Shown here piece by piece: positions 2,451 through 37,209 of a stretch of 64,000 nucleotides of DNA. A program made the translations under genes and the position numbers. The notes beneath the pieces are model-generated. The model ran no database searches. It saw nothing but the letters and a program-made list of their open reading frames with translations, and had not been told where the DNA came from. The first letter of the stretch is position 1; every line of letters starts with the position of its first letter. Origin of the DNA: Verrucomicrobiia bacterium (GTDB lineage Bacteria; Verrucomicrobiota; Verrucomicrobiia; Verrucomicrobiales; DEV007); contig JAUICH010000008.1 in the NCBI GenBank assembly GCA_030427505.1, positions 186,001-250,000 on the forward strand, in the 5' to 3' direction.

Positions 2451-3371
2451 ATGGATTCTTCCGCCCATTCCAAACCGTTGCCCGTGGATGAAACCCGTTG
2501 TGTCTTGGCCGAAGGCGTCCTCTGGGACAGCCGGACGCAACGCCTTCTGTGGATCGATATTGAGGGAAATGTCCTTTTTGCCCGTCAGGATGGCATAACC
2601 AAAAAGTTCGTCCTCGACTCTTGCCCGGGCACCGTGGCGCTTACGGAGAATGAGGAATTGGTTCTCCTGGCTTTGAAGACTGGGTTGTTCCTGTTGGATT
2701 TGAGAACCGGAGATACGGAGTTTTTTGCGCCGTTTCCCAATTCTGGCGATCAGGCTGAATTGCGTTTCAATGATGGCAAGCCAGACCCCACGGGTCACCT
2801 GTGGGTGGGCACCATGCACTTGGACGGGTTGGAGGGGCGGGGTTCCCTCTATTGGTTTGCCGGGGAAACAGAGTTGTGGGAGGCCCGCGTTTCTTCCACC
2901 ACGGTGTCCAACGGGCTCGCCTGGTCCTCTGATGGCGGCACCTTCTTCTACACGGATAGTCCCACCCGCCGCATACGCGCGTTCGACTTTGACGGGCGGA
3001 CCGGTACGCTTTCGCGCGAGCGAACGGTCGTTTCTATTCCAGAAGGCTGGGGATACCCGGACGGTTTCACCATCGACAGCGAAGACAAGCTGTGGGTTGC
3101 CCATTGGGCCGGTGGCCGGGTGGTCCGGTACGACCCTGAGTCCGGCGATCCCATGGAAGTCATCGAGGTGGGTGTGCCCCAAGTCACCAGCTGCACCTTT
3201 GGCGGGCCGGACTTGAGGACGCTTTACATCAGCACCGCGCAGGGTTCCCGGGACGCCGGGTATGTGGACCTGGAGCGTTACCCGCTGAGCGGGGCGGTTT
3301 TCGAAGTGCGGACCAGCGTGGAGGGAACCAAGAGCCATCCCTTTCTCCGTCCGGCTGGGAGAAAAAGTTGA
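2451..3371 (+). CDS. SMP-30/gluconolactonase family sugar-lactone hydrolase
   Basis: 306 residues, a normal length for the six-bladed beta-propeller SMP-30/gluconolaconase/LRE family. Family signatures seen are EGVLWDSRTQRLLWIDIEG near the N-terminus (the Glu is a metal ligand), RFNDGKPDPTGHLWVGTM (the Asn/Asp metal site), VSNGLAWSSDG and PDGFTIDSEDKLWVAHWAGG. These enzymes hydrolyse aldonolactones using a divalent metal. The frame stays open upstream to 2316, but the ATG at 2451 gives the usual N-terminus. No signal peptide is seen, so it is probably cytosolic. The exact sugar substrate is unknown. Confidence 0.88.
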   Translation: MDSSAHSKPLPVDETRCVLAEGVLWDSRTQRLLWIDIEGNVLFARQDGITKKFVLDSCPGTVALTENEELVLLALKTGLFLLDLRTGDTEFFAPFPNSGDQAELRFNDGKPDPTGHLWVGTMHLDGLEGRGSLYWFAGETELWEARVSSTTVSNGLAWSSDGGTFFYTDSPTRRIRAFDFDGRTGTLSRERTVVSIPEGWGYPDGFTIDSEDKLWVAHWAGGRVVRYDPESGDPMEVIEVGVPQVTSCTFGGPDLRTLYISTAQGSRDAGYVDLERYPLSGAVFEVRTSVEGTKSHPFLRPAGRKS

Positions 3372-3392
3372 GAAGGGTTGCCATGCCCCCCA

Positions 3393-3440
3393 AAAAAGAA
3401 CGCTCCGTACCGCTTCAGCGGCCGGAGCGTCTTTTCTTTC
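3393..3440. terminator. Bidirectional terminator between convergent genes
   Basis: An A-rich tract, then ACGCTCCG, a GC-rich loop, CGGAGCGT and a T-rich tract. It can end both the lactonase transcript and the opposing amt transcript. Confidence 0.8.
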
Positions 3441-3497
3441 AATAGCCGGTTCCCAAACTGACGGGCCGGTTTGAAAAGGGGAAGGAGAGTACCGATC

Positions 3498-4793
3498 TCA
3501 GTTGGAGTAGCCGCTTTCCCCGTGCGAGGCCTGGTCCAGGCCCACGGTTTCGTCCGCCTCGGTCACCCGGAGTCCGACGACGACTTTTACGATCAGAAGG
3601 GCCACCACGGAGACAATGCCGCTCCAAGCCACGGTTACGAGGACGCTCTTTGCCTGGGTCACTACTTGGGAAGCCACATTGATCTCCGGGTCGCGTAGAA
3701 AGACGCCGGTCAGGATGGCGCCGACAATGCCGCCGACACCGTGCACGCCAAACACGTCCAAGCTGTCGTCGTATTTGAACATCCGCTTCAGGGTCGTGGC
3801 ACAGAAGTAACACAAGATGGCAGACGCGGCGCCGATCACGATGGACCCAAACACAGTGGTGGAACCTGAAGCCGGCGTGATGGCCACGAGTCCGGCCACG
3901 GCTCCGGTGGCGGCGCCCACGGCGGTGGGCTTGCCCGTTTTCAGCCATTCCACGAACATCCAGGCTAGCACGGCGGTGGCGGTGGCGACCTGGGTGGTGA
4001 TCATCGCCATGCCCGCGCTGGCGTTCGCGGCCGCGGCACTACCCGCGTTGAAGCCGAACCACCCCACCCACAGCAAGGCGGCGCCGATGACCGTAAAGGG
4101 CACGCTGTGCGGCGCCATGGTTGCCTTTCCGTAGCCCTCACGGGGGCCTACCATGATGCAGGCCACCAGGCCCGCGATGCCCGCGTTGATGTGCACCACG
4201 GTCCCGCCGGCGAAGTCCAGCACGCCCCAGTCAGCGAACAGGCCGCCGCCCCAGGCCATGTGCCACACGGGCACGTAGGAAAAGATCGCCCAGATGGTGG
4301 TGAACAGCAGCACGGCGATGAACTTCATCCGCTCGGCAAAGGCGCCGACGATCAGCGCGGGGGTGATGATGATGAAGGTCATCTGAAAGGTGATCCAGAC
4401 GCTTTCCGGAATGGAGTCGTTCACGGAGTCTTCCGTCAGCTTGCTCAGCATGAGATTTGAGAAATCGCCAAAGAAGGCCTTCTCATCCGAACCCGTGGCC
4501 AGGCTGTAGCCCAGGATGATCCACACCAGGGACATCACAGCGGCGATTACCAGGCACTGCATCAGCACGCTGAGGACGTTCTTGGCGCGGACCAAGCCGC
4601 CGTAGAAAAGAGCCAGACCGGGCAGCGTCATCAGTAGAACCAGGACCGTGGAGGTCAGCATCCACGCGGTGTCTCCCGTGTCGATGGCGGGCGGTGCGGA
4701 GGTAGCGGCGGCTGCCGCCTCCTGGGCGGCTCCGGATTGTGCGGCGAGCAGTCCGACACCGGACATGACTGCGAATAGCTTCAGGGTTTTCAT
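3498..4793 (-). CDS. amt: Ammonium transporter (Amt family)
   Basis: 431 residues, a normal Amt length. It has a cleavable signal-like N-terminus (residues 1-25, ending in an Ala-rich stretch), as in E. coli AmtB, followed by about 11 membrane helices. The twin pore histidines are His201 (TVVHINAG) and His351 (FGVHGVGG). Other Amt signatures are PGLALFYGGLVRAKNVLS and WVGWFGFNAGS. It moves ammonium/ammonia across the inner membrane. No glnK/glnB gene is adjacent, which is unusual because amt is generally paired with one. The gltB gene 12 kb away belongs to the same nitrogen-assimilation route. Confidence 0.95.
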   Translation of the reverse strand: MKTLKLFAVMSGVGLLAAQSGAAQEAAAAATSAPPAIDTGDTAWMLTSTVLVLLMTLPGLALFYGGLVRAKNVLSVLMQCLVIAAVMSLVWIILGYSLATGSDEKAFFGDFSNLMLSKLTEDSVNDSIPESVWITFQMTFIIITPALIVGAFAERMKFIAVLLFTTIWAIFSYVPVWHMAWGGGLFADWGVLDFAGGTVVHINAGIAGLVACIMVGPREGYGKATMAPHSVPFTVIGAALLWVGWFGFNAGSAAAANASAGMAMITTQVATATAVLAWMFVEWLKTGKPTAVGAATGAVAGLVAITPASGSTTVFGSIVIGAASAILCYFCATTLKRMFKYDDSLDVFGVHGVGGIVGAILTGVFLRDPEINVASQVVTQAKSVLVTVAWSGIVSVVALLIVKVVVGLRVTEADETVGLDQASHGESGYSN

Positions 4794-4895
4794 TGGAATG
4801 AGTTGGGTTGAGCGGTCCTTCAGTCAGTTCTTGATCATTTTCCTGGCAATCCCCCCAAGATTGATAACTGGGAGTATGGACAAGGAAAAATACTA

Positions 4896-4908
4896 ACCAG
4901 GAACTGGT
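4896..4908. promoter_or_regulatory. Small palindrome in the amt/sulfatase divergent intergenic region
   Basis: ACCAG-GAA-CTGGT, a perfect 5-3-5 dyad, lies in the 237-bp region between the divergent amt and sulfatase genes, about 100 bases upstream of the amt start. It could be an operator for either gene. There is no match to a site I can name. Confidence 0.25.
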
Positions 4909-5030
4909 AACAATGTTGGTTTTTCTGGTTCTATCTTATCCGGGGCTGGCTGACAAAAAGTTTTTCAGACGTATTCCGGGACGGATTTTGACAAGACAGG
5001 CTTTCGCCGGAACGCTAGGCTCCCACCGCC

Positions 5031-6485
5031 ATGAAAGCCCCGTTTCTCTCCTTCTCAGCCGTCTTGTCCGCCTTGGTTTGGATCTGTTTGCTCAGCGGGC
5101 CCATACCGCTAAAGGCCGCCGCGGGCGACAAGCCGAATGTCATCTACATCATGGCGGATGACCTCGGATACGGAGACCTGGGCTGCTACGGGCAGAAGAT
5201 CATGAAGACGCCGCGCATCGATGAAATGGCGGCGGAAGGCATGAAGTTCACCCAGCACTATGCGGGGAGCGCCCTCTGCGCGCCCACGCGTTCCTGCCTG
5301 ATGACCGGCACTCACACCGGACACACCCGGGTGCGAAACAATGGCGGCGCGGATGGCGACCTTCACCCGGAAGACTTTACGGTGGGCGAGCTTCTCAAGC
5401 AGGTGGGGTACGCCACCGGCGCCATCGGCAAATGGGGCGTGGGGGAAGCCGGCACCACCGGCATCCCGACCCGGCAGGGCTTCGACTTCTTCTTTGGTTA
5501 CCTGAATCAGTCCAACGCCCATCACTACTACCCGCCCTTCCTCTGGCGGAACGAGGAAAAGGAGCTCTACCCGGACAATCCGGAGAAGCGCACCCACTAC
5601 AGCCACGACCTGATGACGGACGAAGCGCTCGGGTTCATTCGGGAACACAAAGACGGTCCCTTTTTTCTCTATGTGCCCTACACCATTCCTCACGTGAGCC
5701 TTGATGTGCCGGAGGATTCCATGGCGCCCTATGTGGGTACCATTGAGGAGACCGAGCCTTACGGAACGCCGGGCGGTCAGCACTACCGCTACGAGGAGAA
5801 GCCGCATGCCGCCTTTGCCGGCATGGTTTCCCGCCTGGACCGGGACGTGGGCCGCATTCTCGACCTCGTGGAGGAACTCGGCATCGCGGAAAACACGCTG
5901 GTCATCTTCACGAGCGACAATGGTCCCACCTCCGCCGGGGGCGCGGACCCGAAGTTCTTCGATGGCAATGGCCCCCTGCGCGGTATCAAATTTGAATTCT
6001 ACGAAGGCGGCATTCGCGAGCCGATGATTGCCTGGTGGCCCGGCACCGTGGCCCCGGGCACGGAGAGCGATCACGTTTCCGCTCACTGGGATCTCATGCC
6101 CACCCTGGCGGAACTGACCGGACAACCCGTGCCGGAAAGTACGGACGGGATTTCCTTCCTTCCCACCCTGCTGGGAAACAGCGCGGAGCAGAAACAGCAC
6201 GCATTTCTGTATTGGGAATGGCCGGGCGGCGGGGGCGTGCAGGCCGTGCGCCAAGGGGACTGGAAAGGCATCCGCCACAAGCTCCAGAAAGACGCGGACG
6301 CGCCCATCGAACTCTACAACCTGGCGAACGACCTCGGCGAAGAAACCGACGTGGCGGCTCAGCACCCTGACGTGGTGGCGGAGATCCATCGCATTATGAC
6401 GGAGGAACGCATTGCGCCCGACCCGGACCCGCTCTTTACTCCCGCCAAGCCAAAGAAGGCCAAAAAGAAAAAGTCAGCGGAGTAA
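5031..6485 (+). CDS. Secreted type I (formylglycine) sulfatase
   Basis: 484 residues. A signal peptide spans about 1-31 (MKAPFLSFSAVLSALVWICL, ending in AAAG). The sulfatase fold starts at KPNVIYIMADDLGYGDLGCY (metal-binding Asp pair). The sulfatase motif is CAPTRS with Cys83, which an anaerobic or FGE-type enzyme would convert to formylglycine. Further signatures are GKWGVGE, FTSDNGPTS and GGIREPMIAWWPG. The Lys-rich tail (AKPKKAKKKKSAE) is unusual. It hydrolyses sulfate esters, probably of polysaccharides, in the periplasm or outside the cell; the substrate class cannot be read from sequence. The PLP enzyme gene starts 18 bases downstream, so co-transcription is likely. Confidence 0.94.
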   Translation: MKAPFLSFSAVLSALVWICLLSGPIPLKAAAGDKPNVIYIMADDLGYGDLGCYGQKIMKTPRIDEMAAEGMKFTQHYAGSALCAPTRSCLMTGTHTGHTRVRNNGGADGDLHPEDFTVGELLKQVGYATGAIGKWGVGEAGTTGIPTRQGFDFFFGYLNQSNAHHYYPPFLWRNEEKELYPDNPEKRTHYSHDLMTDEALGFIREHKDGPFFLYVPYTIPHVSLDVPEDSMAPYVGTIEETEPYGTPGGQHYRYEEKPHAAFAGMVSRLDRDVGRILDLVEELGIAENTLVIFTSDNGPTSAGGADPKFFDGNGPLRGIKFEFYEGGIREPMIAWWPGTVAPGTESDHVSAHWDLMPTLAELTGQPVPESTDGISFLPTLLGNSAEQKQHAFLYWEWPGGGGVQAVRQGDWKGIRHKLQKDADAPIELYNLANDLGEETDVAAQHPDVVAEIHRIMTEERIAPDPDPLFTPAKPKKAKKKKSAE

Positions 6486-9273: not shown

Positions 9274-9470
9274 GAGGGCCGAAGGCCCGCCGCATACCAG
9301 CCTGGGGCGTCAAGCCCCAGGAAAAGATGCAGGAGAAATACGAGGGCTGAAAGCCCGGCGCATCTGTCGAGGGCACGCCATCGTCCAGGGGAATGCGCCG
9401 GGCATTCAGCCCTTTTCAGTTTTCGATCACGTTTACCTGGGGCTTGACGCCCCAGGCTGGTATGCGCCCC
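9274..9470. repeat. Nested REP/REPIN-like inverted repeat cluster
   Basis: The outer arms at 9291-9321 and 9436-9466 are perfect 31-base reverse complements, each containing its own hairpin (CCTGGGGCGTCAAGCCCCAGG). An inner pair at 9343-9363 and 9393-9413 (AGGGCTGAAAGCCCGGCGCAT and its complement, one mismatch) sits within them. A third relative of the inner unit is at 9275-9295 (AGGGCCGAAGGCCCGCCGCAT). The structure is two inverted REP pairs nested in each other, typical of REPIN elements mobilised by a RAYT transposase encoded elsewhere. It fills most of the 350-base gap between the convergent PLP enzyme and rtcB genes. Confidence 0.8.
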
Positions 9471-30430: not shown

Positions 30431-32002
30431 ATGAAAGCCCCTTTGTTCACCCTGCTGCTGGCGGTGGCCGTTCTTTTGACGGCCCCGGTGGTCCGCTCCG
30501 CCGAGCCGGACCGGCCCAATATCCTCTTCGCGATTTCAGACGACCAGTCTTTTCCGCACGCCTCCGCCTACGGTTGCGAGTTCGTGCACACGCCCGCCTT
30601 CGACCGGATCGCCGGAAAAGGGGTGCTCTTCATGAATGCCTTTGCCCCTTCGCCGGGGTGCAGCCCTTCCCGGGCCGCCATGCTGACGGGGCGCTTTCCG
30701 TGGATGATCGAAAACGCCGGGACGCACGCCAGCGAGTTTCCCGCCAAATACGTGACCTACCCGGACCTGCTGGAACAGGGCGGCTACTTCGTGGGCTACA
30801 CTGGGAAAGGCTGGGGACCGGGCAATTGGAAAGAAAGCGGCCGCACCCGGAATCCGGCGGGGCCGGAATTTTCCAAGCTGAAACTGCCCAAAGGCACCAC
30901 GCCGGAGGGCATCAGCAGCAATGACTACTCCGGCAACTTCAAGGCCTTCCTGGAGCAGCGCCCGGCGGGGAAACCGTTCTTCTTCTGGTACGGCGCCACG
31001 GAACCGCACCGCTCTTACAAGAAAGGCATCGGCCTGGAGCAGGGGAAAAAGCTGGAGGACGTGACCGTGCCGGAATTCCTGCCCGACACCCTCGAGGTGC
31101 GGAGCGACCTGCTGGATTACGCGGTGGAGATCGAGTGGTTCGACAGTCACCTGGGCCGGATGCTGGACCTCCTGGAGGCGAATGGAGAGCTGGACAACAC
31201 CCTGGTGGTCATCACCTCGGACAACGGCATGCCCTTTCCCCGGGCCAAGGCGAACTGCTACGAATACGGCATCCACCTGCCCCTGGCGGTCAGTTGGCCC
31301 GCCAAGGTGCCCGGCGGCCGGGTGGTGAAAGACGTGGTGAGCCTGGCGGAATTTTGCCCCACCTTCCTGGAAGTGGCCGGGGTGGAGCATCCCGGAGGCG
31401 ACTACCCCCTGGCGACCGCCTCGCTCCTACCCGTGCTGGAAAGCGAAAAGGACGGCCAGGTGGACCCGGCCCGGCTCTATACCTATTCCTCCCGCGAGCG
31501 GCACTCCTCCTCCCGCTGGAATAACCTGGCCTACCCTCAGAGGGCGCTGCGGACGGAGCAGTATCTGTTCATCCGCAACTTCAAGCCCGAGCGCTGGCCC
31601 GCCGGCGCGCCCCAGAAGATGGGCGAGGGGAACTACCCGAAAGACGTCACCCAACTCGGCCCCATGCATGGTGGCTATCACGACATCGACGCCTGCCCGA
31701 CCCTGGATTTCCTGGTCGAAAACCGCGATGACGAAAAGATCGGCCGCTACCTGGGCATGGCCGTGGCCAAGCGGCCCGCCGTGGAGATGTACGACATTAA
31801 GAACGATCCCGCCTGCCTCGCCAACCTCGCCAGCGATCCCGAACACGCCGGCGTCCGGGAAGCCCTGGAACGCCAGCTCAATCTCTACCTGGAAGAAACC
31901 AACGACGCCCGCGTCACCGCCCCCGACGGCGGCGACATCTGGGAAACCTACATGCGGTATTCCAAAATACGGACGTTTCCGAAGCCGGATTGGGCGGAGT
32001 AG
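30431..32002 (+). CDS. Secreted type I (formylglycine) sulfatase
   Basis: 523 residues from ATG 30431 (the frame is open from 30371), which places a clean signal peptide at 1-24 (MKAPLFTLLLAVAVLLTAPV). RPNILFAISDDQS supplies the metal-binding Asp pair. The sulfatase motif is CSPSRA with Cys77. Other motifs are GKGWGPGNW, FFFWYGATEPHR and VVITSDNGMPFPRAKANCYE, the last typical of heparan N-sulfatase-like members (S1_8-type), which is a suggestion only. Serine replaces the usual Thr/Ala in the middle of the CxPxR motif, which is permitted. It borders the accessory island on its left side. Confidence 0.93.
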   Translation: MKAPLFTLLLAVAVLLTAPVVRSAEPDRPNILFAISDDQSFPHASAYGCEFVHTPAFDRIAGKGVLFMNAFAPSPGCSPSRAAMLTGRFPWMIENAGTHASEFPAKYVTYPDLLEQGGYFVGYTGKGWGPGNWKESGRTRNPAGPEFSKLKLPKGTTPEGISSNDYSGNFKAFLEQRPAGKPFFFWYGATEPHRSYKKGIGLEQGKKLEDVTVPEFLPDTLEVRSDLLDYAVEIEWFDSHLGRMLDLLEANGELDNTLVVITSDNGMPFPRAKANCYEYGIHLPLAVSWPAKVPGGRVVKDVVSLAEFCPTFLEVAGVEHPGGDYPLATASLLPVLESEKDGQVDPARLYTYSSRERHSSSRWNNLAYPQRALRTEQYLFIRNFKPERWPAGAPQKMGEGNYPKDVTQLGPMHGGYHDIDACPTLDFLVENRDDEKIGRYLGMAVAKRPAVEMYDIKNDPACLANLASDPEHAGVREALERQLNLYLEETNDARVTAPDGGDIWETYMRYSKIRTFPKPDWAE

Positions 32003-32093
32003 GGGTTAGGGAGGAAAATCGCAATTTTGACCTTGTTGCTTTGACTGGTTGCGTCTACACGGACTAAGGGTACAAGAATATGGTTATCCAGGG

Positions 32094-32219
32094 GTTGAGA
32101 ATTCTTGACTGACCCGAATGGCACGTAGTTAACGCCGATTTCGTCCCTCTAGCAGCCCTGTTTATCGGGGAAATGGAGGTCGTAAAGCTGCTTATCTACG
32201 TGCCATTCTTGACTGACCC
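32094..32219. mobile_element. Degenerate copy of the GACTGACCC element
   Basis: ATTCTTGACTGACCC occurs as a 15-base direct repeat at 32101-32115 and 32205-32219. Between the copies lies a perfect 12-base inverted pair AATGGCACGTAG (32117-32128) / CTACGTGCCATT (32196-32207). The terminal sequence matches the ends of the complete element at 33226-33381. It looks like nested or rearranged copies of the same short non-autonomous element. Confidence 0.6.
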
Positions 32220-32220
32220 T

Positions 32221-32370
32221 TTTTCCCTAGCCACAAACCAAGCAAACCTTGTATTCATGAAGGAAGACCGCTACGCCCACCAGAAAGGGTTTCGGATCAT
32301 ACTTGCGATAGAGGCCGAAATCGAATTGCCCAATCGTGTGAAGTTTGAGCTGGCGCGTTTGACCCACTAG
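32221..32370 (+). pseudogene. Probable truncated cassette gene
   Basis: An open frame ending at 32370 (visible ending PNRVKFELARLTH) runs out of the repeat element to its left. An ATG at 32173 exists but lies inside the element, so the original start is probably lost. The stop is only 14 bases before the attC-like site at 32385, as expected for the 3' end of a cassette gene. No family is recognised. Confidence 0.35.
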
Positions 32371-32384
32371 CCGAAATCTGTGAG

Positions 32385-32510
32385 GGCTAACAAGACGCGG
32401 ATGAACAACTGCCTGCCCGCGTCGAGTCGGAAGCGAAATGAACGTGCAAACTTCAACCCCGAACTCGGAGCGCGCTGACTGCAGGCAGTGACGTCGCTTT
32501 GACGTTCTAC
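32385..32510 (+). repeat. attC-like integron recombination site 1
   Basis: Left core GGCTAAC (32385-32391) followed by AAGACG; right core GTTCTAC (32504-32510). Between them the strand folds on itself: ACTGCCTGC (32408-32416) pairs with GCAGGCAGT (32481-32489). Further in, CGCG (418-421) pairs with CGCG (471-474) and CGAGT (423-427) with ACTCG (463-467), with unequal bulges, leaving a variable loop of about 35 bases. This cruciform plan with RYYYAAC/GTTRRRY-like ends (one mismatch in each) is that of an integron attC. The next gene starts 36 bases beyond. Confidence 0.65.
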
Positions 32511-32546
32511 AGAGAACGAATCCGCTAAACGGTAAACTCTCGATTC

Positions 32547-33224
32547 ATGGAAAAGCGCAATCAGCAGATCGCAATCGCTGGAGTCATTGGGACGTTTATA
32601 GCGGCAGGAGCCGCTGTATTGGTCATTCCAGAAGTCAGAATATTTTTTGGGCTCGATGATCCCCACCAAGTCCAAGTTCAGAATCATCTTTATCAATCTC
32701 AAGATGCTCAGAGCGCAGAAAAGTCTTTTCCAATTATACTCGTAGGTGAAGACGGCGAGGAACTTGATGGATCTGTGGTCGATGTCCAATTCCTGCTCAC
32801 CTACAATGATGATTCACGAATCGGAATTCCGATTTACTACGGGTATTGCAATACAACCGAGGCAACTCAGAAAGTATCCTATTCGCGTTGGTATGCAAAT
32901 GCTCCTCTTATTGGCGGAGAGGTTTCCCTAAGCGACAATGGCTTTGAATTTGTGCGAGAATTCCGTGAAGATGTGAGCCTCACAGCCAAAAACTGTTCTA
33001 GCCTCTACTATTCGACCTATCGAATAAACAAATCCAGCTATCCGATTCCCGCGGGAAGATACCAAATAAGGTTAGAGCTCTTTACAGATGAGGCGTTGGT
33101 TGCCGTAGCGAATGTGTGGTTGAAGCTGTTACCGAATCTCCCTGTTCGGGAGCACGACGGAAGAATTTTTGATCCTGAAGATTACCTCTCCCGTCCGCCA
33201 GTGAAGATCCAATCAGTCGAATAA
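32547..33224 (+). CDS. Orphan membrane-anchored protein, cassette gene
   Basis: 225 residues. An N-terminal membrane anchor (IAIAGVIGTFIAAGAAVLVI) follows a short positive start (MEKRNQQ). The rest is a probable extracytoplasmic beta-rich domain (IILVGEDGEELDGSVVDVQF, then IPAGRYQIRLELFTDEALVA). It has no motif I recognise. The gene is visibly more AT-rich than its core-genome neighbours. It starts shortly after attC-like site 1. A short repeat element is inserted one base after its stop, apparently into its own recombination site. Confidence 0.7.
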   Translation: MEKRNQQIAIAGVIGTFIAAGAAVLVIPEVRIFFGLDDPHQVQVQNHLYQSQDAQSAEKSFPIILVGEDGEELDGSVVDVQFLLTYNDDSRIGIPIYYGYCNTTEATQKVSYSRWYANAPLIGGEVSLSDNGFEFVREFREDVSLTAKNCSSLYYSTYRINKSSYPIPAGRYQIRLELFTDEALVAVANVWLKLLPNLPVREHDGRIFDPEDYLSRPPVKIQSVE

Positions 33225-33225
33225 G

Positions 33226-33381
33226 AAAAGGGGTCAGTCAAAAAATTTAGACACTGTGGGCCGAAGTTGGATTGGCCGCGCCGGATGGAGGATTTTAAGA
33301 GAGACGCCTGCTATCGTCTCCGCTAGAGGGGCAATAGTCCGATTATTGAGATGAGTTGAGAATTTTTGACTGACCCCTTTT
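33226..33381. mobile_element. MITE-like element with 19-bp terminal inverted repeats
   Basis: AAAAGGGGTCAGTCAAAAA at 33226-33244 and its perfect complement at 33363-33381 bound a 156-base element with no coding capacity. The interior has GGATGGAGGATTTTAA, also seen in the partial copy at 35092. No target-site duplication is obvious. It appears to have landed in the attC of the preceding cassette. Confidence 0.75.
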
Positions 33382-33455
33382 CCTTTCCTTTTCGGCGGCT
33401 GTTCGAAAATCATTTACGTCATGCAAGAATTGCCGTGACTATTTCCATGGCATTA

Positions 33456-33462
33456 GTTAGGT
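33456..33462 (+). repeat. Right core of a disrupted attC-like site
   Basis: GTTAGGT fits the integron R' consensus GTTRRRY exactly and stands just before the next cassette gene. The left half was not found; the MITE at 33226-33381 lies where it should be. Confidence 0.4.
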
Positions 33463-33528
33463 AAAGAATTTTACCAATGGACGGCTCGATTTTCGGCAAC
33501 GTCGTTCTTATTCAAAATAGAAAGAAAA

Positions 33529-34185
33529 ATGAAATTATCTTTATTTTGGGACATTGTGACGCGCCGAATCACGGGCGCAACGAGGATTGCCGCGACACTG
33601 CTACTGGCCTTCTGCGGCCTTGTGACCACTGCTTGCGTCACGACAACAACGTCGAACCCCTTATCCGCTGAAGAGCAAAAATTGGTCGGAACGTGGACTC
33701 TCCAACAAGGGCCTGCTGCCACTGTAGTACAGTACCAAGAGAATCGCAGGGCTCGATCAACAGCGATTTACCAAGGCAGAACATATACCGGCACGAGTCG
33801 CTGGCAACTAGTGAACGGGCAGCTTGCTTACAGCAGCGGCATCATATACCGTCTCAACTTCATAGATAATGGCCAGGTTCAGGTTACGCTTGTCGATGGG
33901 AACGGCAGACTGCCTCGTTCCCTTGGGGGCACGCACAGGATGTATAAGTATTCACAGAGTCCAAGCGCAAGCCCTCAAGGCGCACTTGCCTACCTCGAAA
34001 CAAAGCGGCCTTCTCGAAGTGGGGGCGGTATGTCTGAATCTGAAGCGCTTGCCGCAATGGCGCTTCTCATTGGTCTGATGGGTGCAATGGACGGACCTTC
34101 TGATTCATACGACCAGCGCGAAATTGATCGCAACAACGCCATAATTAGCGCCCAATCACAACAAATGGGAACCAATTCTTGGTAG
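33529..34185 (+). CDS. Predicted lipoprotein, cassette gene
   Basis: 218 residues. The N-terminal hydrophobic stretch (AATLLLAFCGLVTTAC) ends in a plausible lipobox Cys. A small beta domain opens with EEQKLVGTWTLQ, as in lipocalin-like lipoproteins (GTYTGTSRWQLVNGQL follows in similar style). A Gly/Met-rich hydrophobic segment (SEALAAMALLIGLMGAMDG) lies near the C-terminus. No specific family is recognised. It sits between the R' core at 33456 and attC-like site 2 at 34231, as a cassette gene would. Confidence 0.65.
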   Translation: MKLSLFWDIVTRRITGATRIAATLLLAFCGLVTTACVTTTTSNPLSAEEQKLVGTWTLQQGPAATVVQYQENRRARSTAIYQGRTYTGTSRWQLVNGQLAYSSGIIYRLNFIDNGQVQVTLVDGNGRLPRSLGGTHRMYKYSQSPSASPQGALAYLETKRPSRSGGGMSESEALAAMALLIGLMGAMDGPSDSYDQREIDRNNAIISAQSQQMGTNSW

Positions 34186-34230
34186 GCGATTTGCTTGTGC
34201 TACGTAACATTTCGCTAACGCGAACCACAA

Positions 34231-34327
34231 ACATAACAAGGCGGCGATACAAACTGCGGCACTCGAGACCCTTCCCACCCTCAGCATACCGCGCCGTTTG
34301 CGCCGTGGTACGCATCTGATGTTCGGC
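34231..34327 (+). repeat. attC-like integron recombination site 2
   Basis: Left core ACATAAC followed by AAGGCGGC; right core GTTCGGC (34321-34327). The inner arms CAAACTGCGGC (34250-34260) and GCGCCGTTTG (34291-34300) pair with one bulge. The next gene's ATG is 6 bases past the right core, the usual tight spacing in cassette arrays. Confidence 0.65.
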
Positions 34328-34332
34328 AAAAA

Positions 34333-35055
34333 ATGATGTTGCGAGACGGAGTTGAATACCTACACCACCTTGAAGCGCTGCATAAACAGTCGCGGATCAA
34401 GAGCAACGGGACGCTGAAGCCTTTAATGGATGAACTGAGACTGGCGGGAGCGTATCTGGAGACTTTGTATATTGTTTCTACGTGCGCAAGCGGTTGCAAG
34501 GGAGGAGATCATCTGCACGAGTATTTAGCGGGGCGCTGCTACAACTTGGGGTGCGCGGCGTTCAGTCTCATTCGGATTGGATACTATGACGAAGCTCTGA
34601 GCCTGATTCGTAGCATGGGAGAGATCGCGAACCTTCAATCCCTATTTCTCACTGATTCTGACGAAGAGATAAGGTGGCGGGAGAGCACAAAGAGGGAGAG
34701 GATCCGAGATTTCGGGCCAGCAGCGATCCGCAGAAAGCTGGAAAATTCGGGCGGCCTCCTCCTGATGGATGCTGATACGTATTCGTCGCTCTGCGAGCAG
34801 GCAACCCATGTCACGCCTGACACCGAGCCGAATAGTTTTACAAAGGATGGCCATCCGAGGGTCGGCCCTCATCAACAGGAAGAAGGAGCGAAGAGAGCAA
34901 TTTCAGGACTAGCCCTTATGTTGGGTTTCCTAGCATTGGGATGTTCGAAATTTACAGGAAATGACGCTTTGTTTGAAGAGATTTCACAAGTCTTCGAGGC
35001 AACGACTGATGCTGAATCTGAGAACCCGACTGCCGAACAAGATGGCGCTGACTAA
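34333..35055 (+). CDS. Orphan helical protein, cassette gene
   Basis: 240 residues, mostly alpha-helical by composition. The N-terminal half has GAYLETLYIVSTCASGC and FSLIRIGYYDEALSLIRSMG, the second reminiscent of hypothetical proteins often carried by environmental gene cassettes. One hydrophobic segment (ISGLALMLGFLALGC) lies near residue 200, followed by an acidic tail. Function unknown. Its TAA stop is inside the GACTAAC core of attC-like site 3, and its start follows site 2 by 6 bases, so it is the best-defined cassette of the island. Confidence 0.7.
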   Translation: MMLRDGVEYLHHLEALHKQSRIKSNGTLKPLMDELRLAGAYLETLYIVSTCASGCKGGDHLHEYLAGRCYNLGCAAFSLIRIGYYDEALSLIRSMGEIANLQSLFLTDSDEEIRWRESTKRERIRDFGPAAIRRKLENSGGLLLMDADTYSSLCEQATHVTPDTEPNSFTKDGHPRVGPHQQEEGAKRAISGLALMLGFLALGCSKFTGNDALFEEISQVFEATTDAESENPTAEQDGAD

Positions 35056-35091
35056 CCCGCTGCCGCCGTCGAGTCGGGAAAAAGAGTCGGG
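35050..35091 (+). repeat. attC-like site 3, left half only
   Basis: GACTAAC is followed by CCGCTGCCGCCGTCGAGTCG; the CGTCGAGTCGG part also occurs in the left arm of site 1. The sequence then stops abruptly at the repeat element that starts at 35092, so the right half is missing. Confidence 0.5.
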
Positions 35092-35185
35092 AAAAAGGGT
35101 CAGTCAAAAATTCTTGACACTTCTTAGGCTGAAGAAAGGCTGGCTGTGCCGAATGGAGGATTTTAAAATCTCTTTTATAAAATCC
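35092..35185. mobile_element. Partial MITE-like element and AT-rich dyad
   Basis: AAAAAGGGTCAGTCAAAAAT matches the left end of the 33226 element with one change. The interior GAATGGAGGATTTTAA matches its interior too. No right terminal repeat is seen. The end of the fragment contains GGATTTTAAAA, 4 bases, TTTTATAAAATCC (35158-35185), an AT-rich dyad 50 bases before the antitoxin-like gene. It could serve as promoter or operator for that pair. Confidence 0.6.
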
Positions 35186-35235
35186 CTGCGTCACGGGCGG
35201 ATTGATTTTGCGCCTTCATTCTGCTAGGTTTCGCC

Positions 35236-35412
35236 ATGATCGCGGATTCCCTGAGGACTCAGATCGAAGCGCTCTCCTCAGACGAGCGTCGCGAACTCGT
35301 TGCGTTTCTCACCAAGTTGGAGTTGGAGTCTGACGAGGAATATTGGGACCGGGTGCGGAGGAGGCTGGCGGATGACTCCTCCGAAAAATGGGTTCCAGCC
35401 GACCAACTTTGA
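35236..35412 (+). CDS. Small antitoxin-like protein
   Basis: 58 residues: a helical, acidic protein (MIADSLRTQIEALSSDERRE, then FLTKLELESDEEYWDRVRRR) ending KWVPADQL. Size, charge and the SSDERRELV pattern recall the addiction-module antitoxins that precede RelE/ParE-type toxins. The next gene starts 3 bases after its stop, and the TGAAGGATG junction suggests coupled translation. Confidence 0.6.
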   Translation: MIADSLRTQIEALSSDERRELVAFLTKLELESDEEYWDRVRRRLADDSSEKWVPADQL

Positions 35413-35415
35413 AGG

Positions 35416-35676
35416 ATGCCGCGAGACTATCGCGTGTTTGTGAACCTTGAGTGCCTTGACGTTCTCAAAAAGACGGGCAAGCGCCGTGAAGCTGTCATTG
35501 GTTTCTTTCGTGTCCTCGGATCAATCGCCCATCTGGGGGGCGATTTTCAGATGATCGACCCAGAGTCTTCCCGCCGGTTCGAAGTCACTCACGTCGCTGG
35601 ATTTGCGATTACTTGGTGGGTCGACGCCGCCGTTTACGAAGTGAAGGTCGTCGACGTTCATCCGATCGCAAATTAG
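35416..35676 (+). CDS. Small RelE/ParE-like toxin candidate
   Basis: 86 residues of a mixed alpha/beta protein: KKTGKRREAVIGFFRVLGSI, GGDFQMIDPESSRRFEV and a strand-rich C-terminus (FAITWWVDAAVYEVKVVDVH). The FEV...FAITWWV...VKVVDV pattern fits the C-terminal sheet of RelE/ParE-fold toxins, but no catalytic residue can be assigned. Pairing with the small gene just upstream supports a toxin-antitoxin module, a common passenger of integron cassettes. It closes the accessory island. Confidence 0.5.
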   Translation: MPRDYRVFVNLECLDVLKKTGKRREAVIGFFRVLGSIAHLGGDFQMIDPESSRRFEVTHVAGFAITWWVDAAVYEVKVVDVHPIAN

Positions 35677-35760
35677 GAGAAGTGAGTTTGGACGTTCTCC
35701 AAAAAATAGATGATTGAGCCGGGTGAGAGTGAGATCAACAGACTGCGGAATCGGTCCACC

Positions 35761-37209
35761 TTACTCTTCCGGCTTTTCCCGTTTTCCCGGGCCCTGGCGG
35801 GCCCGCTGGGGATCGTAGTCCGGGTTGGGGTGCATGAGTTGGGCGCCGGTGGCTTGGCGCCAGTTTTCGAGCATGGTGCGGAGGGTCTTGGCGCGGTCGG
35901 GTTGTTGGGTGGCGAGGTTGGTGGTTTCGCTGAGGTCTTCGGCCAGGTTGTAGAGTTCGAGGCTGCCGTCTTCGTAGCGTTCGATGAGTTTCCAGCTTCC
36001 CGCGCGGACGGCGCCGTAGGGGCCGGTGTTGCCGGCGTGGTAGTGGGGGAAGTGCCAGAAGAGGGCTTCGCGTTCCAGGCTGGCTTTGGGGTTTTTGAGG
36101 AGGGGTACCAGGCTGAGGCCGTCCATGGTGGCGTTGTGCGCGGCTTCGCCGGGGGCGCCGGAGGCGGCCAGGATAGTGCGGTAAAAGTCGATGCTGCACA
36201 CGGGATCCGCGCAGACGCCGCCGGGCTGGGTGACGCCGGGCCACTTCACGATGAGCGGCACGCGGTGGCCGCCTTCGTAGGCGGAACCTTTGCCGCGGCG
36301 GAGCGGGGCGTTGTCCGTGATGCCGGTTTCGCCGAGCTTGTCCGTGCCGGTGTATTTGTGGCTCAGGCCGCCGTTGTCGGAGGAGAAGATGACCAGGGTG
36401 TTTTCCGTCAGGCCCAGTTCCTCCAGCTTGGCCAGGACGCGGCCCGCGCTTTCGTCCAGGCTCTGGGTCATGGCGGCGTAGGCGGCATTGTCATGGACCG
36501 CGCCGTCTTTGATGAGGCCCTCGTATTTCTTCACCAGCTCCGGTTTTCCCTGAATGGGGGTGTGCACGACGTAGTAGGGGAAGTAGATGAAGAAGGGTTC
36601 GTCCTTCCACTGGTCGATCAGTTTCAGGCACTGGGTGGTGAGGTGATCGGTCAGGTAGTCGCCCTCCTTCGCCTCCGGCAGATCGAGTTTGTTTGGCAGA
36701 AAATAGCCGCCGGGGGGCGAACCGCTTTCCGTGCCGCCGATGTTCACGTCAAAGCCCTGGTGCTCCGGCAGGAACTCGCCGCCGCCGAGGTGCCATTTGC
36801 CGATGTGGGCGGTGTGATAGCCGGCGGCTTGCAGCGCTTCGGCGATGGTGGTGTGGCGCTGCTCCAGGTGGAGCGTCCAGTCCGGGGGACTGAGCTTCGC
36901 GTAGGGCAGCTTCGTGCCGGGAATCCAGTTCGTGACATGCAGGCGGGCCGGATACATACCGGTCATGACAGCGGCGCGGGTGGGGGAGCAGACCGTGCAG
37001 GCGGCGTAAGCGTCGGTGAAGCGGACCCCCTCCGCGGCGAGGCGGTCGAGGTTGGGTGTTTCGTGGAGGTCGCTCCCGTAGCAGCCTAGCCCGTTCCAGC
37101 CCAGGTCATCCGCGAGCAGAAGAACAATGTTAGGACGCTCCGCGCCGTGAGCCGTTCCGAGCAAAAAAGCGCCAGAAACCAGAAAGAAAAGCCAGTGTTT
37201 CATCGTCAT
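35761..37209 (-). CDS. Secreted type I (formylglycine) sulfatase
   Basis: 482 residues (480 if the second ATG, at 37203, is used). A signal peptide spans 1-22 (MKHWLFFLVSGAFLLGTAHG). RPNIVLLLADDLGWNGLGCY is followed by the sulfatase motif CSPTRA, Cys74 counted from the first ATG. GKWHLGGGEF, VIFSSDNGGLSH and KGSAYEGGHRVPLIVKWPG complete the active site. The C-terminus is Pro/Arg/Glu-rich. It acts on sulfate esters outside the cytoplasm; the substrate is unknown. It converges with the cassette island and is divergent from the TPR-peptidase operon. Confidence 0.94.
   Translation of the reverse strand: MTMKHWLFFLVSGAFLLGTAHGAERPNIVLLLADDLGWNGLGCYGSDLHETPNLDRLAAEGVRFTDAYAACTVCSPTRAAVMTGMYPARLHVTNWIPGTKLPYAKLSPPDWTLHLEQRHTTIAEALQAAGYHTAHIGKWHLGGGEFLPEHQGFDVNIGGTESGSPPGGYFLPNKLDLPEAKEGDYLTDHLTTQCLKLIDQWKDEPFFIYFPYYVVHTPIQGKPELVKKYEGLIKDGAVHDNAAYAAMTQSLDESAGRVLAKLEELGLTENTLVIFSSDNGGLSHKYTGTDKLGETGITDNAPLRRGKGSAYEGGHRVPLIVKWPGVTQPGGVCADPVCSIDFYRTILAASGAPGEAAHNATMDGLSLVPLLKNPKASLEREALFWHFPHYHAGNTGPYGAVRAGSWKLIERYEDGSLELYNLAEDLSETTNLATQQPDRAKTLRTMLENWRQATGAQLMHPNPDYDPQRARQGPGKREKPEE

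Follow-up and report, generated by a model that had tools for sequence, protein, structure and literature searches.

The window analyzed here is a stretch of 64,000 nt from a Verrucomicrobia-type genome (G000, 6.4 Mb in 56 contigs), where it is G000:C56:186001-250000. At window positions 32003-35760, between two sulfatase genes, lies a cluster of integron-type gene cassettes whose main genes are all on the plus strand (Table 1). It holds about three to four cassettes, with one clear and one weak complete recombination site (attC) and two half sites. We identify this cluster, with high confidence, as a CALIN (cluster of attC sites lacking an integrase) of a Verrucomicrobia-type chromosome. A preliminary description of the same DNA had proposed an integron-type, CALIN-like cassette cluster with no visible integrase, and both the attC model matches and the integrase found elsewhere in the genome support it.

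Table 1. Features of the cassette cluster (window coordinates).
Feature	Position	Strand	Remarks
Composite repeat upstream of site 1	32094-32226		inverted-repeat element 32116-32208 between direct repeats ATTCTTGACTGACCC
attC site 1, complete	32385-32510	+	left core GGCTAAC, then AAG, stem, right core GTTCTAC
Cassette gene 1, 225 aa	32547-33224	+	hydrophobic N-terminus (by eye), no known family
Repeat element, perfect 20-nt terminal inverted repeats	33225-33382		at the place expected for the attC of cassette 1
Lone right core GTTAGGT, candidate start of cassette 2	33456-33462	+	weak alone
Cassette gene 2, 218 aa	33529-34185	+	lipoprotein-like N-terminus (by eye)
attC site 2, shorter, weaker	34231-34327	+	left core ACATAAC, right core GTTCGGC
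Cassette gene 3, 240 aa	34333-35055	+	weak DUF5677; stop codon inside site 3
attC site 3, left half	35032-35077	+	left core GCCGAAC (35032-35038)
One-ended copy of the 33225-33382 element	35091-35166		follows the site 3 half, at the place of the missing right half
Small ORF, 58 aa, possible antitoxin (inference only)	35236-35412	+	from sequence
Small ORF, 86 aa, possible toxin (inference only)	35416-35676	+	from sequence
attC site 4, right half, taken as right array end	35683-35700	+	from half-site rank

The sites and their order, the genes on a single strand, an attC type common to the other arrays of the genome and a full-length integrase on another contig are all observed directly. CALINs are a standard class of integron element in two papers (PMC9024848, PMC12444791), and the former gives at least two attC sites as the IntegronFinder 2 default for them. 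Here two sites, the second of them weak, are matched by a model of our own, built solely from relatives. C56 has no integron integrase match, and no relic of one was found in the insert. The three main open reading frames (ORFs), all on the plus strand, start 36, 66 and 5 bases past a core, the second core being weak; the 6-36 bases claimed previously leave out the 218-aa ORF with its 66. The intI gene and attI site that adjoin the array in a complete integron were not found in the window; C27 has an intI gene and an attI-like sequence.

The insert had also been described as AT-richer than its neighbors, and its fraction of guanine plus cytosine (GC) is 0.503 (32006-35700) compared with 0.636 and 0.645 for the sulfatase genes on either side. 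Other array stretches in the genome have 0.523 to 0.538 (C29, C19, C52).

Identification of attC Sites

To avoid circularity, attC sites were first sought in the surroundings of integron integrases from relatives; a stem finder was superseded by a pattern-based finder, and that by covariance models. The model R1 was built from 24 chosen attC sites of relatives, with sites of the own genome, second copies in overlapping loci and all but one near-identical 106-nt site of genome G040 excluded from the seeds. R1 is biased, since every seed has AACAAG, which the pattern finder demanded. In its seed alignment, each of the 16 predicted stem pairs has at least one sequence in which both partners are changed and pairing is kept. 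A genome-specific model, R2, was built from 47 own-genome matches outside the window. Moreover, attC ends (the first 18 nt and the last 18 nt, also in a 14-nt version) were made into profiles and scored at 127,966 positions on both window strands; the profiles derive from 70 of 71 sites (24 of relatives and 47 of the own genome, weak matches included, and none of the window), one site being too short and dropped.

With default filters and E up to 10, R1 finds only two matches in the 64-kb window, both on the plus strand, and these are sites 1 and 2, at the same coordinates, to the base, as in the preliminary description. With filters off, 13 matches appear at 31500-36300, the third of which (35032-35046) is at noise level. 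Site 1 scores 88.6 bits with R1 (E 3.3e-17 for the 64-kb window) and 92.4 bits with R2, is eighth of the 45 matches that R1 lists genome-wide with E of at most 1, and its right half ranks third with the 18-nt profile and first with the 14-nt one. Site 2 scores 21.8 bits with R1 (E 0.0045 for the 64-kb window) and 20.4 bits with R2 (E 0.0024); its first 18 nt rank first, its last 18 nt eighth and its last 14 nt thirteenth. The three best left halves in the window by the 18-nt profile, at 34231, 32385 and 35032, are exactly the three sites. An attC covariance search, which had been suggested as a check and was run in equivalent form with our own model, is thus positive at two of the three sites claimed, and the third is backed as a half site.

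Half Sites and Array Ends

Half-site profile ranks make site 3 a left half with its core at 35032: its first 18 nt rank third of 127,966. A stretch of 32 nt in it has 91% identity to an own-genome attC of the C29 array (L093:2930-3054), and its core GCCGAAC is complementary at 7/7 positions to the right core of site 2. With full models its scores are noise (7.0 bits with R1; 12.2 bits with R2 for 35032-35126, E 0.3, fourth of 45). The attC-like character assigned to this site earlier therefore stands for a left half, but the left core is not GACTAAC at 35050, which lies inside the site.

The preliminary description also named the lone core at 33456. This core and the left core of site 2 are complementary at 6/7 positions, but by itself it ranks just 3000 to 5206. 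Site 4, absent from that description, has a right half ranking first (18 nt) and second (14 nt) of 127,966. A possible left stem arm at 35587-35609 lies inside the 86-aa ORF, the arms being 23 nt long and 78% complementary; the candidate folds only slightly better than shuffled sequences (z -1.16; 26 of 200 shuffles fold at least as well). The second-best right half, at 35450 within the same ORF, was taken as a probable chance match, as were other high ranks inside genes, and a possible left core at 33216 was rejected as too weak (ranks 109 and 343).

The core at the start of a cassette and the left core of its own attC match at 7/7 positions for cassette 3 and at 6/7 for cassette 2, agreements found elsewhere in 3% (seven) and 17% (six) of non-neighbors. 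Among neighboring sites of the genome, 27 of 41 pairs match at six or seven core positions, compared with 20% of non-neighbors; the 41 include the pair of sites 1 and 2, with four matches. This pair has only four because an attC between its two members, that of cassette 1, is missing.

Cassette Genes

Each of the main genes 1-3 has one copy in the own genome. Gene 1 has no match in Pfam, NCBIfam or PADLOC and, among 288 genomes of the order (E up to 1e-5), is limited to its own. The same limitation is seen for gene 3, for which a contig scan also found no relative. Gene 2 is present in three of the 288, the own genome included, the other two being distant relatives at 30 and 35% identity; it has an NCBIfam lipoprotein match below the cut-off (E 0.0035). 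The earlier statement that these genes lack recognizable families is nearly true, except that gene 3 has a DUF5677 match below the Pfam cut-off (E 0.00046).

The two small ORFs at 35236-35676 are laid out like a possible toxin-antitoxin pair, as judged by their arrangement; family searches give no support. The 58-aa ORF, searched with 57 of its 58 residues, has just weak sub-threshold family matches, and the 86-aa ORF has none in Pfam, NCBIfam or PADLOC. A fold model of the latter has low confidence (mean predicted local distance difference test score 48.9), that of a second ORF modeled has 34.9, and both are unusable.

Corresponding Interval in Relatives

In two genomes of another genus of the same family, the genes for ScpA and a TPR protein are 4 to 5 kb apart, compared with about 7 kb in the window. 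The interval between them holds other genes; neither a cassette gene nor an attC match was found in it, nor a sulfatase match of more than 80 bits. A third relative, G012, has two attC sites upstream of its TPR gene. Two observations had been named beforehand as speaking against a cassette cluster, namely the lack of any attC model match and a gene order conserved in relatives; neither turned up.

Several points weigh against this identification. Only site 1 is unambiguous on its own merits. Site 2 would not stand out genome-wide: it is absent among the 45 R1 matches listed there, and another match of 21.9 bits has E 0.41 in that search. Folded as single-stranded DNA, sites 1 and 2 are no better than shuffled sequences (z -0.74 and +1.14, with 46 and 175 of 200 shuffles folding at least as well), whereas two reference attC sites fold better (z -2.71 and -2.00; 3 and 6 of 200 shuffles equal or better). 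Folding energy alone fails to single out the two sites; the attC stem of the model is backed by covariation. On the left, a candidate array boundary, GTTAGGG at 32005, is too weak, with a 5/7 fit (by eye) to the left core of site 1; on the right, the last cassette may hold two ORFs. Finally, no empty site was found, in a set of genomes that has no second member of the genus and in which both relatives have other genes in the interval.

The unremarkable folding energies could speak for ordinary, vertically inherited genes with hairpins arising by chance. We regard this explanation as highly improbable, given the E-value of site 1 with the relatives-only model, the coincidence of the three best left halves in the window with the three sites, and the lack of the main genes in at least 285 of the 287 other genomes of the order.

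Integron Integrase and Other Arrays of the Genome

The preliminary description reported no integrase gene, which is borne out by the lack of any integrase match in the insert, and suggested a search of the whole genome. Eight matches to TIGR02249 were found, on C27, C54, C51 and C18 and none on C56; a single one, on C27, exceeds the cut-off (361.9 bits compared with 265) and represents a full-length integron integrase. The protein has 324 aa, and its residues 11-321 align with the best solved relative, 2a3v ("IntI4"; E 1.2e-68), which we take to be the Vibrio cholerae integrase. Among relatives of the C27 integrase (22 loci), the best segment is 60 to 66% identical in eight Verrucomicrobia-type metagenome-assembled genomes, and the taxon given here for the host is deduced from these relatives.

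On C27 the integrase is adjoined by an attI-like core, the first cassette gene, an attC and the contig end. Sequences similar to the 138 nt that separate the integrase from the first cassette gene occur on C36 (86% over 115 nt) and on C19 (84% over 79 nt); these attI-like copies (L096 of C36, 1252-1366; L094 of C19, 6578-6656) each lie upstream of attC sites. The last 108 bases of C27 (L009) are identical to the start of C36 (L096) on the other strand, and one cassette seems to appear in both arrays and to have broken the assembly.

The genome-wide R1 search, in which 150 of 1919 candidates were scored, gave 45 listed matches with E of at most 1, of which 42 are below 0.002, and all but two of the 45 are on C19, C27, C29, C36, C52 and C56. 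The attC type of the genome is about 125 nt long, mostly with NNNNAAC-AAG on the left and GAC-GTT on the right, and up to 28 sites occur on one contig. The cluster in the window shares this attC type; it differs from the integron of its own genome (integrase on C27; arrays on C29, C52, C19 and C36) in that the latter has an integrase and an attI-like site on C27 and longer arrays, while the window has neither and only four sites or half sites.

Repeat Elements

Elements of the GGGTCAGTC repeat family cut site 3, occupy the place expected for the attC of cassette 1 and lie upstream of site 1; the copy at site 3 is 78% identical over 76 nt to 33225-33298. A further GGGTCAGTC repeat on C36 is beside the attI-like copy that lacks an integrase, on the flank expected to carry one. 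Targeting of attC is known for some insertion sequences and group IIC introns. A preference of the GGGTCAGTC family for integron recombination sites is improbable in our judgment. In its favor, integron sites account for two of about six genomic loci of the family, while arrays make up roughly 0.5% of the genome (in the grouping of loci, 15 of 17 matches were kept and two were set aside as chance by eye). If there is such a preference, GGGTCAGTC may be a non-autonomous element drawn to attC and attI structures, freezing cassettes in place. A search that allowed up to two changes gave no GGGTCAGTC element in the loci compared from other genomes, mostly integrase surroundings and a few gene neighborhoods. 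A link of the repeat element to the repetitive extragenic palindrome type is unsupported, the four Y1-transposase genes (PF01797) being on other contigs than the repeat.

On C48, a DDE transposase gene is flanked on its two sides by sequences that match the ends of the composite repeat at 32094-32226. Short GAATGGC...GCCATTC elements flanked by TTGACTGACCC are present in the window (32094-32226) and at L124:2851-4434, L096:1418-1548 and L095:10653-10765; as similar ends surround the DDE_Tnp_1 gene on C48, the short copies look like non-autonomous derivatives. Other repeat families are found near GGGTCAGTC copies, with units of 83 to 243 nt in L124 and of 71 to 254 nt in L095:8500-12500.

Possible Origin of the Cluster

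The attC of a cassette folds on one strand, and the integrase recombines the folded attC, normally with attI. In the window, an integron integrase might have recombined the folded bottom-strand attC with a target other than attI, of the attG type, or a rearrangement might have carried the cassettes here; later decay would have followed, with GGGTCAGTC elements cutting site 3 and apparently replacing the attC behind gene 1. Because of these repeats, only site 1, which alone keeps both halves of a typical site, looks competent for recombination.

A review (PMC8618304) names three ways in which CALINs arise, namely off-target insertion, intI loss and rearrangement. If the cluster is a CALIN, off-target insertion has about an even chance of being its origin and is favored, since searches of the window gave neither an attI nor a relic of intI. 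Insertion of cassettes at attG sites has reportedly been described by Loot et al. in 2024, and would explain cassettes located away from attI, the target here being putative.

We think it rather unlikely that the cluster is the remnant of an integron whose own integrase was lost in place. Separation of arrays from the integrase does occur in this genome, as evidenced by the attI-like copies upstream of the C36 and C19 arrays, contigs on which no integrase match was found. Still, the insert has neither an integrase relic nor an attI-like stretch: comparison with the 138-nt stretch of C27 found nothing similar in the window, whose best tblastn match with the integrase (E 2.7) lies outside the insert.

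Transfer of a piece of a larger own-genome array by rearrangement, which would also yield a CALIN, is a possibility we hold to be unlikely but worth keeping in view. The arrays of C29, C19 and C52 share the attC type and have the low GC fraction noted above. On the other hand, the own-genome loci that were compared contain nothing similar to the insert beyond the repeats and two short matches to attC, and the three main genes are single-copy, which is still compatible with a move without duplication. Off-target insertion followed by decay is the origin that we favor.

Comparison with Known Systems and Distribution in the Order

The kind of element is already known, and the cluster is a well-supported new example, an ordinary CALIN with visible decay. 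Like other CALINs, it has attC sites, genes on one strand and no nearby integrase, and, like those of Xanthomonas as presented in PMC12444791, it is separate from the integrase of its genome. It differs in that a repeat element cuts one attC and another seems to have been replaced, and in its Verrucomicrobia-type host.

Verrucomicrobiota are listed among phyla with integrons in PMC8618304, and among the titles covered by a literature search, most subscription papers being outside its scope, there was none on integrons or CALINs of this order. The lineage had been called little described in this respect, but attC sites are common in it: matches (E up to 0.001) were observed in 43 of 57 genomes searched, representing 26 of 29 genera, and an integron integrase (E up to 1e-60) in 25 of the 57, the own genome counted in each case. 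Elements of the CALIN and integron kind are hence common in the order.

In a relative assembled as a single contig, G040:C1, strong attC matches lie near 1443183, 1594677, 1718106 and 2727629-2733329, more than 200 kb from both integrases. Dispersed attC sites in the order are therefore not just an assembly effect. The cluster confirms, outside the usual Proteobacteria, that cassettes settle and decay at chromosomal places away from the integrase, and, given how common the parts are, the order is a usable natural system for the study of how stray cassettes get placed and lost.

At two loci, L047 (G040:C1, 2267125-2268069, plus strand) and L038 (G014:C46, 926-1867, plus strand), the integrase is upstream of the attC sites and on the same strand, while the other integrase of G040 (L055) shows the usual divergent layout. 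Integrases that share the strand of their cassettes are known in spirochaetes. Elsewhere in the window, an Acido-Lenti-1 RNA (RF01687) was found at 9275-9321 on the minus strand, with 41.6 bits, above the gathering score.

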